Assembly (NCBI GenBank): GCA_002720745.1
Contig: PBJO01000005.1
Coordinates: forward strand, 39,388 to 73,576
Direction of reading: 5' to 3'
DNA length: 34,189 nt
DNA from: Balneola sp.
GTDB lineage: Bacteria; Bacteroidota; Rhodothermia; Balneolales; Balneolaceae
Position numbers and translations under genes: made by a program. Every line of letters begins with the position of its first letter. Position 1 is the stretch's first letter. The notes beneath the pieces were generated by a model. It searched no databases. It was not told the origin of the DNA and saw nothing but the letters and a program-made list of their open reading frames with translations. Of the stretch, positions 16,539-23,681 are shown in pieces.

Positions 16539-17121
16539 ATGGAGCGACTACCGAATATACTAAGTACGATACGCATATTATTAACCCCAATTTTTTTGGT
16601 TCTTTTTTTCGAACCAGAACTTTGGATAAAGCTGATTGCACTTGGGGTGTACATCATCGCGGCAATAACCGATTTTTTTGACGGGTATTACGCAAGAAAA
16701 TACAATATTGAAACATCTATGGGCGCGTTTTTAGATCCATTTGCAGACAAATTACTTACCCTTAGTGGCTTTGCCGTTCTCCCTTTTATAGCTGCGGACC
16801 AATTTCCTTGGTGGGCAATAATCGCAATTGCAATACGTGATATTTCTATTACCTTATTTCGATTATGGGCTCGGCAAAAAAAAAATAGAGATACAAACCA
16901 GTTCCTTAGCCAAACTTAAAACTACCGTACAGATGATTTTCCTATATATGGGCCTTATTCTTGGAGTATTTAAAGGCGCTCCTATCTTTTTAGGGGATTG
17001 GGTGTCTTTGATTTTAAGTACTGATCTTATGTTTTGGCTATTAGTTCTTGTGACAGGTATAACAGTATATAGCGGCGTTCAATATCTAAGCAAAAATCGA
17101 CATTTGTTTCAACTAGCTTAG
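16539..17121 (+). CDS. pgsA: CDP-diacylglycerol-glycerol-3-phosphate 3-phosphatidyltransferase, split by a +1 frameshift in an A10 run
   Basis: Integral membrane enzyme making phosphatidylglycerol-phosphate. The complete CDP-alcohol phosphotransferase signature is present: Asp45-x2-Asp48-Gly49-x2-Ala52-Arg53-x8-Gly62-x3-Asp66-x3-Asp70. The first frame (from 16539) reads through LFRLWARQKK, then goes off into a short tail ending at 16919. The frame one base later continues with IEIQTSSLAKLKTTVQMIF, the expected PgsA sequence, to TAG at 17121. The switch falls in a run of ten A's (16876-16885); nine A's would give one 193-residue protein, the normal length. Sequencing error, a real mutation, or slippage-dependent expression are all possible. 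pgpA, the next pathway step, begins 5 bases later. Confidence 0.88.
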
Positions 17122-18403: not shown

Positions 18404-19333
18404 TTAGTCATTAAATCTGACCTCTACAAGTACGGGAAGATGATCGGATGGATAGCGATTCTCGAGTTTATCGGTTAAAATAGCATGATAATAAATGGGT
18501 AAATCCTCACTAATTAAAATATAATCAATCCGCCTATTTTCTTCTATTTTAGTAAAACCTGTCCAGGTAGATGCTGGGCCGTGATGAGCCTGAATGCTGT
18601 GTTTAAATCCATCATGTAGAGACCGACCATCGACCATAGGGGATTCTAATAACAACGCAAGTGGTGGCTCCTCCGATGTTGCATTTAAATCTCCCATTAA
18701 TATTATCGGTAGACCGTTCGCAAATTTGGAAGCCTGTTCTTTGATCAGTCGCGCACTCTCAAGACGGGCTTCCTCCCCTTCATGGTCAAAATGTGTATTC
18801 AGCACAAATATCTCTTGTTCATCATACTTTGTATCAAAATGAGCCCATGTGGCAATACGAGGAAGTGAAGAATCCCAAGACTGGCTACCAGGAATATCAG
18901 GAGATTTTGAAAGCCAAAAAGTATGAGCAGCTTTCACAGAGACAATAGAACTTCGGTATAGAATGGCACTAAATTCACCACCTCCATCATTATTTCGCCC
19001 CATTCCTACCCAAGCATAACCAGGCAGTAACGCCATTAAATCCTCTATTTGATGCTCTAATGCTTCTTGTACTCCTACTATATCAGCCTTGTGAAAACGA
19101 ATTACACTGGCCACCAATTCTTTTCTATTAACCCAAGCATGCTCTCCGTCTTCGGGGTTATCGAAACGAATATTATAAGTCATAACGCGCAAAGTGTTAG
19201 AATTACTATCATTTTGCATCTCATACGGTGTAGAAGAAAACAATAAATATTGAGCATATGTTTTAAAAGGGGAAAAAATGACTGTGAAAAATAAAAAAAG
19301 CGTAATGTATTTATGATATTTAGGTTGAGCCAT
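18404..19333 (-). CDS. Secreted endonuclease/exonuclease/phosphatase (EEP, DNase I-like) family hydrolase
   Basis: Metal-dependent phosphoesterase fold. N-terminal signal peptide (about 1-27, ending TYAQ). The EEP catalytic set is complete: Asn54 in MTYNIRFD, Glu90 in GVQEAL, His181 in LNTHFDHEG, GDLNAT (214-219, Asp215/Asn217), Asp270 in RRIDYILIS and the SDHLP motif (Asp297-His298). Length of 309 fits the bacterial secreted subgroup found widely in Bacteroidota, whose substrates (nucleic acid, phosphoinositide or sphingomyelin-like lipids) vary. Substrate is not determinable here. A single gene; the AT-rich lipid operon begins beyond its 5' flank. Confidence 0.92.
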   Translation of the reverse strand: MAQPKYHKYITLFLFFTVIFSPFKTYAQYLLFSSTPYEMQNDSNSNTLRVMTYNIRFDNPEDGEHAWVNRKELVASVIRFHKADIVGVQEALEHQIEDLMALLPGYAWVGMGRNNDGGGEFSAILYRSSIVSVKAAHTFWLSKSPDIPGSQSWDSSLPRIATWAHFDTKYDEQEIFVLNTHFDHEGEEARLESARLIKEQASKFANGLPIILMGDLNATSEEPPLALLLESPMVDGRSLHDGFKHSIQAHHGPASTWTGFTKIEENRRIDYILISEDLPIYYHAILTDKLENRYPSDHLPVLVEVRFND

Positions 19334-19647: not shown

Positions 19648-20460
19648 CTATTCAAAAGGATCCCAGTCATATGGTATGTATCTAGCCTGTTTTGTAAATT
19701 TTGAATATTTGATAAATTCTAGAATGTCTGGTCCTATCACATCAAAAGAATAATACATTTCATCATGATTTAATGGGGTATAAATCAGCTGATCATAAGA
19801 CTGATTCAGATCTAAATTATTCCAATCAATTGACCCATAACTCATTGTTAATTTTTTAAATCTTCGTATCAAAGGAGTAGCTTTATTCTCTACAATCACG
19901 CCAATATTTATCTCGTCATTTAGAATTGGTGCGTAGCTTACTGTACTAAATTCATTGAGAACTTTACCTGCAAATATCCTCCCTATCAACGGTATCGTTT
20001 CCACAACTACACGAGGAGCTCGTTCCTGCAGAGGACTTCTATTATATACAATAGTTTTTATGTTTTTACTTCCTGATTCATTAATAAATTCATTAAGGAC
20101 GTAGGAACCTAAGATGTATGAAAAAATATGTACTTTTTTATACTCTTCAAGTCGATAGGTATTATATAATTTGGTAAACCTATCTACTGTACCTGCATAT
20201 GATCTTCTATCAATATAGTCTGGTATATATAGATCATAACCCACATTATTAAAATATTTTTTCTGATGTCTTCTTCCCTTTTTAGAATCGCCAAATCCTG
20301 GTAGAATGATTAATGCTTCTTTTTCTGAATAAGAAAGTTCATCGCTATGAATAGCTATAATACCCTTCCTACTACTAGGAGATGTTTTAGAATCTAGCAA
20401 ATTTGAACTGATGCATCCTGAAACAAAAGAAAAAAGAAGTATAAGCTTATAAAGCTTCAT
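19648..20460 (-). CDS. Lipoprotein with alpha/beta-hydrolase-like fold, canonical nucleophile absent
   Basis: 270 residues. A type II signal peptide with lipobox VSGC (lipidated Cys16) puts it on a membrane. The sequence then follows an alpha/beta-hydrolase plan: an oxyanion-type strand-turn ALIILPGFGDSKKGRRHQKK (49-68), a strand YDLYIPDY (75-82), and the nucleophile-elbow position KVHIFSYILGSYVLNEF (109-125). Where V-H-x-x-G-x-S-x-G is expected, the nucleophile site is Ile116. A late NHDEMY (231-236) could carry the catalytic-type histidine (His232). It is last in the five-gene lipid operon, so a lipid-binding, remodelling or sensing role is plausible. I do not recognise a named family, and the fold call is by pattern only. 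Confidence 0.65.
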   Translation of the reverse strand: MKLYKLILLFSFVSGCISSNLLDSKTSPSSRKGIIAIHSDELSYSEKEALIILPGFGDSKKGRRHQKKYFNNVGYDLYIPDYIDRRSYAGTVDRFTKLYNTYRLEEYKKVHIFSYILGSYVLNEFINESGSKNIKTIVYNRSPLQERAPRVVVETIPLIGRIFAGKVLNEFSTVSYAPILNDEINIGVIVENKATPLIRRFKKLTMSYGSIDWNNLDLNQSYDQLIYTPLNHDEMYYSFDVIGPDILEFIKYSKFTKQARYIPYDWDPFE

Positions 20461-20487
20461 AATGATCTGACAGTATTCTTTTTAAAC

Positions 20488-20835
20488 TTATTTACCCATT
20501 AAATACATGCCACCTATTATAAGTAACATACCTATGACGTTAATTATTTTTATTGGGGTACCATAAGCTAATAATCCAATTACAGCTGCCCATATAAAGG
20601 TAGATGCATAAATTGGGTAAAGTACAGTTAATGAACCTCCTTTTTTAAATGCAGCCACAAATAACACCATTACTGTTATATAACATAATACTCCACCAAT
20701 AAGTTTTGTGTTAGTTAAATAGCTCAAAAGTAATCCATTTGAACTTTCAGCACCAGCCTTATATAAGTATTGACCTACTGCGCCAAAGATTGCAGCGATG
20801 ATGAAATAAATGATTGATGAAATAGGGGTATTCAT
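20488..20835 (-). CDS. SMR/EamA-like four-helix membrane carrier
   Basis: 115 residues with four hydrophobic helices: about 5-24, 44-63, 69-89 and 95-113. The pattern AAIFGAVGQYLYKAG in helix 1 and LYPIYASTFIWAAVIGLL then VIGMLLIIGGMYLMG in helices 3-4 match the drug/metabolite transporter superfamily (EmrE, or ArnE/ArnF-type lipid-carrier flippases). The EmrE substrate glutamate in helix 1 is not evident, arguing against multidrug export. Position between plsC-like (6 bases away) and the lipoprotein gene (27 bases) suggests it translocates the lipid made by this operon or its head-group. Dimer formation is expected for proteins of this size. Confidence 0.8.
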   Translation of the reverse strand: MNTPISSIIYFIIAAIFGAVGQYLYKAGAESSNGLLLSYLTNTKLIGGVLCYITVMVLFVAAFKKGGSLTVLYPIYASTFIWAAVIGLLAYGTPIKIINVIGMLLIIGGMYLMGK

Positions 20836-20841
20836 GAGTGG

Positions 20842-21498
20842 TTAATAAAATTCAAACTGATTTCTATCCCTTTCATTTTTTTTCTTTAAATTTAAAATTT
20901 CTTTTTTCACTTCTTCTAAAGTAGTTTTAATATCATTCGTTGTGGCAAACAGAGGCGATCCAAATCTAACTTTACATATCAAAGGTACAATAAGAATTTT
21001 ATTTTTAGGAAGTACTCTACCAAAACCATCTAAATAAACAGGTATGAATGGTACGGATGGATTCTCTTTCAATAATTTAGCAATACCTTTTTTGAAGCTG
21101 GATATTGTACCTGGGTTTCCTCTACTACCTTCTGGAAACATGATTAGAGATTTCCCTTCTTTTATTCTTTGATCTAATACTTCTAGATTAGACAGTTCTC
21201 CAGGCTTTACTTTTTTTGTAATTAAAATAGCATTAAAAAATAATTTCATTAAGCTAACAGTAAGCGATGATTTCCCAAAATAGTCACCAGAAGCAACTGC
21301 ACATGTATTTTTGCGCAACTTGGATGGTAAAGCTGCCATTATAGACACAGTATCGAAATGACTGTTATGATTGGCCACAATTATAAACTGATCTGCATCT
21401 CTTAGATGTTTAATATTATGAAAACTAACTCCAATGAAAAAGGTAAGCCATGGTCTAACCAGAATAGTATAAATTAATGTTACAAATAATTTTCTCAT
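20842..21498 (-). CDS. Lysophospholipid / 1-acyl-glycerol-3-phosphate acyltransferase (PlsC family)
   Basis: Membrane-associated acyltransferase that adds a second acyl chain to lysophosphatidate or a related lysolipid. The catalytic motif NHNSHFD (43-49, His44/Asp49) and substrate motif FPEGSRG (121-127) are intact, with VPFIPVYLDGFG (149-160) as the later family block. The 218-residue length is usual. An N-terminal hydrophobic segment (about 5-24) likely anchors it. It abuts the YnbB-like gene exactly (stop at 21499, start at 21498), so translation is likely coupled. A housekeeping PlsC is presumably elsewhere; this copy appears dedicated to the operon. Confidence 0.92.
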   Translation of the reverse strand: MRKLFVTLIYTILVRPWLTFFIGVSFHNIKHLRDADQFIIVANHNSHFDTVSIMAALPSKLRKNTCAVASGDYFGKSSLTVSLMKLFFNAILITKKVKPGELSNLEVLDQRIKEGKSLIMFPEGSRGNPGTISSFKKGIAKLLKENPSVPFIPVYLDGFGRVLPKNKILIVPLICKVRFGSPLFATTNDIKTTLEEVKKEILNLKKKNERDRNQFEFY

Positions 21499-22443
21499 TT
21501 AGTTTTCAATAAAAAATATAAGTAAATAATAAAATGTTGGAGTTGTAAGTACGATCGAGTCTAATCTATCCATTGCGCCACCGTGTCCTGGAATAAGATC
21601 ATCTGTATCTTTTATTTTTAGATCTCTTTTTACAGCTGAAATAATTGAATCTCCAATAAAACCAATTATACTTAGAGACAAACCCATATAAAAACATTTA
21701 ATGTAATCCAAGGGGGTTAAAAAACTAAGCGCACCTCCTAAAACACCTGATGTAAGTACTCCACCAATAAATCCTACCCAAGTTTTATTAGGACTAATTT
21801 TGGGTAAAATTTTTCGTTTTCCAAGCAACTTTCCCCAGGTGAATTGAAAAATATCATTAAAGGCTGTAATCATTATTAAAAATATGATTAACCCACCAGC
21901 GCCTACAGTAAAACCTGATACAGATACATGAAAAAGTAACACCATATGACTCGGCATGTATACAGTTAATATCAATGTGGTTGGTATGATTGCCATAGAT
22001 CTACCTATACGATTCGTTTCTCCTGTCAAAACAAGAATGACGGATACGCTTATAAACATGACCAGTGGTATAAAGATTTGAAATAAGTAATAATAATTTT
22101 TGTATGCCAAGTAAAATTGAATTGGTATAGCAAAATATGATGCGACCAAAACAGTTCTATCTGCTGTTCTTAGTGGTATTATGGATAGCATTTCACGTAA
22201 TGCAACAAATACCACGTATGCTAAAACTATTGTACCTATTATTGCTGGGGCCGTTGCGACAATAGTAATTCCAATTGCCATTTTCCACCAAGAATTAGTT
22301 CTCACGACTAATTCTGAAACGGAATCACTTTTATTCATAAGTGAAATGATCCCAAATGTAGATGAGCAGATAATAAGGACTACAAATATTATACATAGTA
22401 TAAAAAACAACTCAATTGGTATGTAGTATCCAAAAATATCCAT
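21499..22443 (-). CDS. CDP-diacylglycerol synthase homologue (YnbB-like CdsA family)
   Basis: 314 residues with about eight membrane helices. CdsA-family C-terminal signature: FNDIFQFTWGKLLGKRK (195-211), KISPNKTWVGFIGG (215-228), GDS (264-266) and KDTDDLIPGHGGAMDRLDS (278-296). CdsA makes CDP-diacylglycerol from phosphatidate and CTP. The 'N-D-I-x-Q-x-x-W-G-K' form in place of the usual 'A-D-T-x-A-Y-x-x-G-K', and the N-terminal VVRTNSWW, resemble E. coli YnbB (from memory), a paralogue rather than housekeeping CdsA. The start ATG overlaps the stop of the YnbA-like gene by one base (TAATG), a classic coupling arrangement. Confidence 0.9.
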   Translation of the reverse strand: MDIFGYYIPIELFFILCIIFVVLIICSSTFGIISLMNKSDSVSELVVRTNSWWKMAIGITIVATAPAIIGTIVLAYVVFVALREMLSIIPLRTADRTVLVASYFAIPIQFYLAYKNYYYLFQIFIPLVMFISVSVILVLTGETNRIGRSMAIIPTTLILTVYMPSHMVLLFHVSVSGFTVGAGGLIIFLIMITAFNDIFQFTWGKLLGKRKILPKISPNKTWVGFIGGVLTSGVLGGALSFLTPLDYIKCFYMGLSLSIIGFIGDSIISAVKRDLKIKDTDDLIPGHGGAMDRLDSIVLTTPTFYYLLIFFIEN

Positions 22444-23036
22444 TATAAAGCTTTATAGAGTCGTATTATTGTACCCACAAGTACTAAGGCACTTGCAGTA
22501 CCAAATATCCAATCACCATAATATGTTACATCACTCCAAAAGAAAAACACTAAACAGAAAATACCAATTACTAGGGCCCTATCGCTTTTACCCATTGGGC
22601 CATCATATCTTCTTTCTTTTCCTATAGCTTTACTTAAAATACCGGCAAACTCATTAAGGATAGCCAGCACTCCAAACAATATTATTATAAAAGGATTTAT
22701 TCCGGGTAATATTACAAATGGAAAAATTATAGCTATATCAGAAACTACATCCCCTATCTCATTTAGTATTTCGCCAAGCTGGCTCTGCATATCGTATTGC
22801 CTTGCCATCATACCATCCAATGCATTTAATGCCATTCTTAACAACAATCCAAAAGGAATAATTAAAATGCCTAGATAAAATTTATGATATTGTAAAAAAC
22901 CAAAACCCATTAAACAGGATAGAATAATAGCACTGATAGTCAATTGATTGGCGGTCACTCCAATCTTATAGAGTGCATGCAATATCGGTTGCAGCAATTT
23001 CTGAAATACTGGCTTTAAATTATATACAGAAAACAT
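22443..23036 (-). CDS. CDP-alcohol phosphatidyltransferase, YnbA-like
   Basis: 197 residues, multi-helix membrane enzyme of the CDP-OH-P transferase family, which swaps CMP on CDP-diacylglycerol for an alcohol. The active-site signature is Asn71-x2-Asp74-Gly75-x2-Ala78-Arg79-x8-Gly88-x3-Asn92-x3-Asp96-x3-Asp100. The first and third metal-binding positions are thus Asn rather than Asp, with Asp96 and Asp100 further on. Together with the following GPMGKSDRALVIG block this matches E. coli YnbA as I recall it, a member with unknown head-group. It is the first gene of the operon, with an inverted repeat about 75 bases upstream. The housekeeping PgsA in this window has all four Asp, so the two are distinct enzymes. 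Confidence 0.9.
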   Translation of the reverse strand: MFSVYNLKPVFQKLLQPILHALYKIGVTANQLTISAIILSCLMGFGFLQYHKFYLGILIIPFGLLLRMALNALDGMMARQYDMQSQLGEILNEIGDVVSDIAIIFPFVILPGINPFIIILFGVLAILNEFAGILSKAIGKERRYDGPMGKSDRALVIGIFCLVFFFWSDVTYYGDWIFGTASALVLVGTIIRLYKAL

Positions 23037-23681
23037 CTCTACGTTCGACTAACTAACGAGTTAAAAACGTTTTATGTTTGAATTTTATTGTAAATAAATG
23101 TCTAATGAAATATACTTTACAGTATATATTATCTCTATGATATTCACAAAATGAAAATTTACTTAGTACCACTACTTGGCTCTGGTTACTTTACTATGGT
23201 ATGCAACTAAACAGTATAACGTACAATTATCTAATGACGAATTGTTACTGATTTGTAAAGAGTATCCAAACAATACAAATTTAGATATCGAATGGACAAT
23301 TGGAATTGATAAAATGAAAAAATAAAACATTAATAAAATCATTCAGTCTCATATCGCTTTTATTAGAGAAGAAACTGATTAAGATGTAAGATCTAAGTAA
23401 GTAGATAGATGTTAGAGATTTAAAAGATTTATATAAGGATAAAGGTAAGTCAGTCTTTATTGATGTAGAAAATGTGTTGATATTAAAAACCGCTCCTTTT
23501 TTTTTATCTTTGAGATGTGATGGTAAGTGATTTGATATATTTTAGAAAAAAGTTTTACCATCATATCGTTCTAAAATGAACCCATATTTTAGTATTTAAA
23601 TCAATATAAAATAGTAGTATATAGGTGTTAAATAGTTTTATTTTATACATCACATTTACCATCACAAATAGTTTACTGTAA
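23037..23681. other. Intergenic AT-rich stretch with short open fragments, probable gene debris
   Basis: 645 bases between the YnbA-like start and miaB, holding both divergent promoter regions. Two plus-strand stretches read like protein but lack starts or are flanked by stops: about 23167-23325 (includes LLWYATKQYNVQLSNDELLL, then ending IGIDKMKK) and about 23409-23530 (includes VRDLKDLYKDKGKSVFIDVE). They lie in different frames with stops between. I do not recognise either. A T9 run near 23499 follows an AAAACCGCTCC stretch but has no convincing stem. Confidence 0.5.
23110..23127. promoter_or_regulatory. Inverted repeat upstream of the lipid operon, possible operator
   Basis: ATATACT (23110-23116), spacer TTAC, AGTATAT (23121-23127): a perfect 7-bp dyad. 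It lies 74 bases upstream of the YnbA-like start, in the expected promoter zone of the minus-strand operon. No recognised regulator consensus matches. AT-rich dyads arise by chance in such DNA, so this is a candidate only. Confidence 0.35.

Follow-up and report, generated by a model that had tools for sequence, protein, structure and literature searches.

An Operon of Balneola Built on the YnbA-YnbB Core with an Altered CDP-Alcohol Phosphotransferase Site: A Candidate Pathway to an Additional Phospholipid

The closest described relative of the locus reported here is ynbABCD of Escherichia coli K-12, which is unexplained within the best-studied genome. In this operon, the adjacent genes for YnbA and YnbB are followed by those for YnbC (hydrolase and methyltransferase) and YnbD (PAP2 and dual-specificity phosphatase). 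No study of YnbA was found in the open literature, subscription papers aside, and for YnbB only work on membrane protein integrase (MPIase) and enterobacterial common antigen (ECA) was found. E. coli YnbB cannot complement cdsA, and its overproduction raises MPIase (PMC6362211). The authors could not exclude an additional factor for the incorporation of N-acetylglucosamine (GlcNAc) 1-phosphate, and their paper does not mention YnbA (PMC6362211). Knockout of ynbB leaves MPIase unchanged, and the gene is dispensable for ECA-PG (PMC6362211, PMC8609368).

A homologous core was found in a 34,189-nucleotide stretch of Balneola sp. contig PBJO01000005.1 (the window), where YnbA and YnbB are encoded by the first two genes of a five-gene operon on the minus strand. 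YnbA of the window shares 43% identity with its E. coli homologue, and the two operons have in common the adjacency and order of YnbA and YnbB, a 1-base overlap between the two genes, and the same altered active-site motif. They differ downstream, where the window encodes a PlsC-type acyltransferase, an EamA-like small carrier, and an exported protein with a hydrolase fold, without YnbC or YnbD. The kinship to ynbABCD proposed in the initial annotation is thus upheld for the core, but the operons differ in kind, since PlsC and YnbC/YnbD never occur together among 82 YnbA loci. These loci comprise 80 from a scan of a genome collection, E. coli K-12, and the window, with duplicates removed. The operon is real and recurrent. 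Its architecture is new, built on a YnbA-YnbB core that is known but still unexplained. There is, on the sequence evidence, about an even chance that this mobile accessory cassette makes one extra glycerophospholipid (phosphatidyl-X) and acts on it at the membrane.

The altered metal site of YnbA

The signature of the CDP-alcohol phosphotransferases, D1xxD2GxxAR...GxxxD3xxxD4, is described as comprising eight absolutely conserved residues (PMC4634129), and its four aspartates hold two metal ions (PMC6506517). YnbA of the window (22443..23036, minus strand; 197 residues) meets the Pfam profile of this superfamily (PF01066; E 7e-10; 39.9 bits against a cut-off of 22). Its motif is N71-x-x-D74-G-x-x-A-R...G88-x-x-x-N92-E93-x-x-D96, with Arg67 upstream. 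Six of the eight signature residues are retained, namely D2, D4 (the catalytic base), both glycines, the alanine, and the arginine, and asparagine is found at D1 and D3. The same N-D-N-D arrangement appears in E. coli YnbA, in 83/83 distinct members of the collection (81 by pattern and two, with lysine for the arginine, by eye), and in 14 further YnbAs found by profile only. The pattern used for the collection scan, RMALNALD, presupposes asparagine at D1; a sampling artefact was rejected because the same motif is present in matches obtained from the profile only or from the generic PF01066.

When 32 YnbAs were aligned with 45 other members of the superfamily, N71, N92, and E93 were each found in 32/32 YnbAs versus 0/45 other members, and R67 in 31/31 versus 1/45. 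On these sequences the flanking Glu93 and the upstream Arg67 are equally diagnostic of YnbA. Because D4 is kept and the invariant columns of the family include D96, K150, D152, R153, and R192, the altered site is judged to be maintained in the family by selection rather than to be a mere product of decay. The D4N substitution nearly abolishes the activity of MtPIPS (PMC4634129). The complete domain logic of the initial annotation, with YnbA as an ordinary CDP-alcohol phosphotransferase, did not survive this comparison, as two of the four metal-site aspartates are asparagine family-wide. This change across the whole YnbA family is the wider point, and the motif sharpens the question of whether a CDP-alcohol phosphotransferase can function with neither D1 nor D3, and which acceptor it would use.

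The YnbA sequences form one clade of 31 rows (SH-aLRT 98) outside the E. coli PgsA, PssA-like, and phosphatidylinositol (PI)-phosphate synthase rows. The tree was a quick one, some of its branches are long, and its reference set is drawn mostly from Bacteroidota. The placement of YnbA apart from the PgsA, PssA, and PI-phosphate synthase clades removes one of the grounds on which the initial proposal would have fallen. YnbA of the window also falls below the curated equivalog cut-offs for PgsA, PssA, ClsA, PI-phosphate synthase, and archaetidylinositol-phosphate synthase; the best NCBIfam score is 73.4 bits against a cut-off of 180 bits, for archaetidylinositol-phosphate synthase. A PgsA control passes its own NCBIfam cut-off (185.8 versus 109.1 bits). 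A duplicate of phosphatidylglycerol (PG), phosphatidylserine (PS), or cardiolipin synthesis was rejected on the tree together with these curated thresholds. The CDP-alcohol phosphotransferases of about 300 residues with DSADGQLAR motifs, which are common in the phylum (L117 and L131-L143), occupy clades of their own in the tree.

The AlphaFold model of YnbA (mean predicted confidence, pLDDT, 86) is closest to RsPIPS, a PI-phosphate synthase (PIPS), with a Z of 19.8 and 2.7 Å over 188 residues. The six-helix fold gives Z values of 17.5-19.8 to PIPS, AF2299, and DIPPS structures, versus 12.5 to PG-phosphate synthase and 12.4 to PS synthase. YnbA shares with the PIPS enzymes (MtPgsA1, RsPIPS), whose solved fold is the closest, those signature residues that bind the nucleotide and the arginine that binds phosphate in the loop between transmembrane segments 4 and 5; it differs in the asparagines at D1 and D3, the glutamate after D3, the arginine before D1, and its separate clade. 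In the profile alignment R153 of YnbA is matched with R155 of MtPIPS, which binds phosphate (PMC4634129). A phosphorylated acceptor for YnbA is favored because of the PIPS-like fold, the R153/R155 match, and the YnbD phosphatase encoded in a second class of YnbA operons (class II, below), which fits a phosphatidyl-X-phosphate intermediate. The gene for myo-inositol-1-phosphate synthase (INO1) was not found in the host genome, which is 98.6% complete. An inositol phosphate acceptor is therefore unlikely, and a phosphatidylinositol pathway was disfavored.

Partner genes and two operon classes

YnbB (21499..22443, minus strand; 314 residues) carries the CTP_transf_1 domain (PF01148; E 3e-52). It shares this domain and an intact catalytic signature with CdsA, from which it differs as a phosphatidate cytidylyltransferase paralogue encoded alongside the existing CdsA of the host. 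The CDP-diacylglycerol (CDP-DAG) synthase signature S..KR...D...PGHGG..DR.D is intact in 81/81 YnbB relatives. The third gene (20842..21498, minus strand) encodes a PlsC-type 1-acylglycerol-3-phosphate acyltransferase of 218 residues (PF01553; E 1e-18), whose motifs NHxSHxD and PEGSRG are intact here and in 44/44 relatives.

The fourth gene (20488..20835, minus strand) encodes a small membrane protein of 115 residues with four hydrophobic segments and an EamA-like second half, and its homologues are conserved in 8 loci. It is like ArnE/ArnF-type flippases and the SMR transporters in its length of ~115 residues, the four segments, and the EamA-like half; it differs from them in its sub-threshold scores (EamA, 17 bits, below the cut-off, and a weak ArnE match) and in a first transmembrane segment (TM1) without glutamate. 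Glutamate in TM1 is the defining residue of EmrE-type SMRs. The TM1 of the carrier is without an acidic residue, as in all homologues listed; multidrug efflux of the EmrE type was rejected for this reason, and the SMR label first given to the protein was withdrawn. This candidate is more likely to be a lipid flippase than a drug exporter, because of the four hydrophobic segments, the absence of an acidic TM1 residue, and the weak resemblance to ArnE.

The fifth gene (19648..20460, minus strand) encodes an exported protein of 270 residues, and its AlphaFold model (pLDDT 87) has an alpha/beta-hydrolase fold with a Z of ~15 to esterases, including the BlEst2 lipase (Z ~15, 3.6 Å over 211 residues). 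The nucleophile elbow is FSYILGS and not G-x-S-x-G, and in an alignment of 21 members the nucleophile position is not serine, cysteine, or aspartate. In the same alignment Y115 and I116 are invariant, and S114 is replaced by cysteine or alanine in some rows. Residues E191 and H232, which are placed like the acid and the histidine of a triad, are also invariant. A role as a serine hydrolase was rejected since the nucleophile is absent in all 21 aligned members, and we infer from sequence and model a lipid-binding protein or an unconventional enzyme. The protein had been called a lipoprotein. A lipobox (VSGC or ASGC) is indeed present in the window (VSGC, residues 13-16) and in its genus, but the lipobox is missing from homologues outside the genus, which carry only a signal peptide. 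A profile-profile comparison of this protein with the hydrolase domain of YnbC gave no match. The copy in the window stops about 4 residues before its same-genus homologues, at a TAG (19648) within the conserved C-terminus.

All five minus-strand open reading frames were found where first annotated, with a 1-base overlap at 22443 between YnbA and YnbB, abutment at 21498/21499, and gaps of 6 and 27 bases before the carrier and the exported protein. The initial domain calls were confirmed by Pfam for CDP-OH_P_transf, CTP_transf_1, and Acyltransferase, whereas the EamA score of the fourth protein stayed under the cut-off and neither Pfam nor NCBIfam gave a match to the fifth. The view of the genes as a single accessory operon of phospholipid type is supported by the order kept in other species and by the YnbA-YnbB adjacency, which is seen in 79/82 loci and includes the homologous core of E. 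coli. Given that the order is kept in other species, the five-gene arrangement is more than chance.

Of the 82 loci, 42 encode PlsC beside YnbA, 22 the exported hydrolase-fold protein, and 8 the small carrier. The carrier and the exported protein are thus recurrent neighbors, a point on which the initial proposal of an undescribed system had been staked. The 8 carrier loci belong to four Balneola genomes (the window included) and to metagenome-assembled genomes (MAGs) of one Bacteroidia, one Flammeovirgaceae, and two Saprospiraceae members. Among ~297 genomes sampled across the phylum, three encode the hydrolase-fold protein, always directly beside YnbA, and seven encode YnbA itself.

The loci fall into two classes. 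Class I has the order A-B-PlsC (42/82 loci), and class II has the order A-B-patatin-SDR-YnbD-YnbC (33/82 loci, many of them from Chryseobacterium, so that the loci counted do not represent independent events). PlsC is never accompanied by patatin or YnbC (0/82 loci) or by YnbD, and the classes never overlap. E. coli ynbABCD is close to class II, and both PlsC-type and YnbC-type loci also occur in Gammaproteobacteria. Three weak gammaproteobacterial matches (L170-L172; 58-69 bits) without a readable motif were left unclassified. The two mutually exclusive partner sets allow the pathway to be approached independently from two sides. The patatin-like proteins of class II (L058:9412-10479 and relatives) have ASCGG or ATCGG at the usual GxSxG position, where cysteine may replace the catalytic serine.

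Proposed pathway and alternatives

The gene content, the homologies, the intact motifs of PlsC and YnbB, the altered motif of YnbA, the recurrence, and the mobility are observed; from these we infer, in the following scheme, each of the reactions, the lipid formed, and which way it is transported. PlsC would complete phosphatidate, which YnbB would activate to CDP-DAG separately from the housekeeping CdsA. At the cytoplasmic face YnbA would then transfer the phosphatidyl group to a polar alcohol that probably carries a phosphate. Its metal site would be a rebuilt one, with asparagines at positions 1 and 3 beside the added Glu93 and Arg67. The resulting lipid would be flipped by the EamA/ArnE-like four-helix protein and bound or processed on the periplasmic side by the exported hydrolase-fold protein. 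Several observations weigh against this scheme. MjPSS lost its activity when D3 was replaced by asparagine (D62N), magnesium did not restore it, and every signature mutation lowered activity (PMC8633023); YnbA may accordingly not catalyze the usual reaction. The flippase role depends on the sub-threshold EamA match, no headgroup-making gene was found consistently in class I operons, and no phosphatase gene is present among the five genes of the window operon.

In the main rival, YnbA would no longer be a phosphatidyltransferase but a CDP-DAG-binding partner that helps YnbB to join CDP-DAG with a sugar 1-phosphate. The product would be a sugar-PP-diacylglycerol, either GlcNAc-PP-DAG (the precursor of MPIase) or a related lipid. 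The family-wide replacement of the D1 and D3 ligands and the inactivity of MjPSS D62N would fit such a role, as would the rise in MPIase upon overproduction of a YnbB that does not complement cdsA, with room for an extra factor (PMC6362211). The catalytic base D4 is invariant, however, and would be superfluous in a mere binding protein; the ynbB knockout leaves MPIase as it was and ECA-PG does not require the gene (PMC6362211, PMC8609368), and PlsC, the carrier, and the exported protein are left unexplained. This rival is considered unlikely, at roughly one chance in five. A remodeling or salvage cassette is less probable still. Here PlsC would reacylate lysophosphatidate, YnbB and YnbA would run in reverse or by exchange, and the exported protein would supply the lyso-lipid, in keeping with the lipid hydrolase-type genes that accompany YnbA-YnbB both in class II (patatin, YnbC) and in class I (the exported hydrolase fold). 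An exported protein without a nucleophile should not hydrolyze esters conventionally, though, and the patatins lack the usual elbow.

The last alternative, a mobile spare set for ordinary PG-phosphate, PS, cardiolipin, or PI-phosphate synthesis, is marginally the most improbable of the three. The superfamily and the fold are the same, and the top NCBIfam scores are those of the archaetidylinositol-phosphate and PI-phosphate synthases. These scores are far under every curated cut-off, and the separate clade, the different signature motif, and the absence of INO1 from the genome searched also argue against a spare set. With phosphatidyl-X synthesis as the preferred reading, a broader proposal can be made tentatively, at somewhat under even odds. 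YnbA may represent a catalytic type of its own among proteins of the CDP-alcohol phosphotransferase fold, marked by an N-D-N-D site with invariant glutamate and arginine. Its product would be an undescribed phospholipid class, made in at least Bacteroidota, Balneolota, Fibrobacterota, and Gammaproteobacteria (among them E. coli), and one or the other of two partner-gene sets would finish and export it. If such a lipid exists, it would be a membrane component common to distant phyla that has been missed by lipidomics.

Genomic setting of the cassette

The host genome (2.17 Mb) has Balneola MAGs as its close relatives. It carries a separate CdsA and three further CDP-alcohol phosphotransferase genes, and the cassette is therefore regarded as accessory. 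YnbA is present in 4/9 genomes of the genus and in 6/58 relatives. The operon has a G+C content of 31.9%, compared with 39.4% for the remainder of the window. In a same-genus genome (L192), pyrE, an endonuclease/phosphatase gene, and miaB are collinear with the window, and the position of the cassette is taken by ~650 bp without a long open reading frame. YnbA of the window groups in the tree with Flammeovirgaceae and Saprospiraceae MAGs, apart from the other Balneola YnbAs. The AT-rich operon, the cassette-free site in L192, and the tree position together point to horizontal movement of the cassette.

The operon is separated from the divergent miaB by an AT-rich intergenic region (23037..23681, 25% GC; minus strand), which is presumed to hold the promoter. 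Promoter and terminator scans gave matches at or below chance level. An exported protein of the endonuclease/exonuclease/phosphatase family is encoded on the same strand (18404-19333), 314 bases downstream of the operon. It was rejected as a sixth member because of this gap and because it adjoins pyrE in the genome without the cassette. The housekeeping pgsA of the window (16539-17121, plus strand) is split between two frames that overlap at a stretch of about 10 A, a break in this assembly that is either a sequence error or real, and is followed by pgpA and pyrE. Other Balneola species (L031:2746-3690, L127, and L128) carry a second, separately placed YnbA-YnbB-PlsC operon, upstream of which lies the gene for a secreted hydrolase of the S9/S15 type whose GHSQG elbow is intact.

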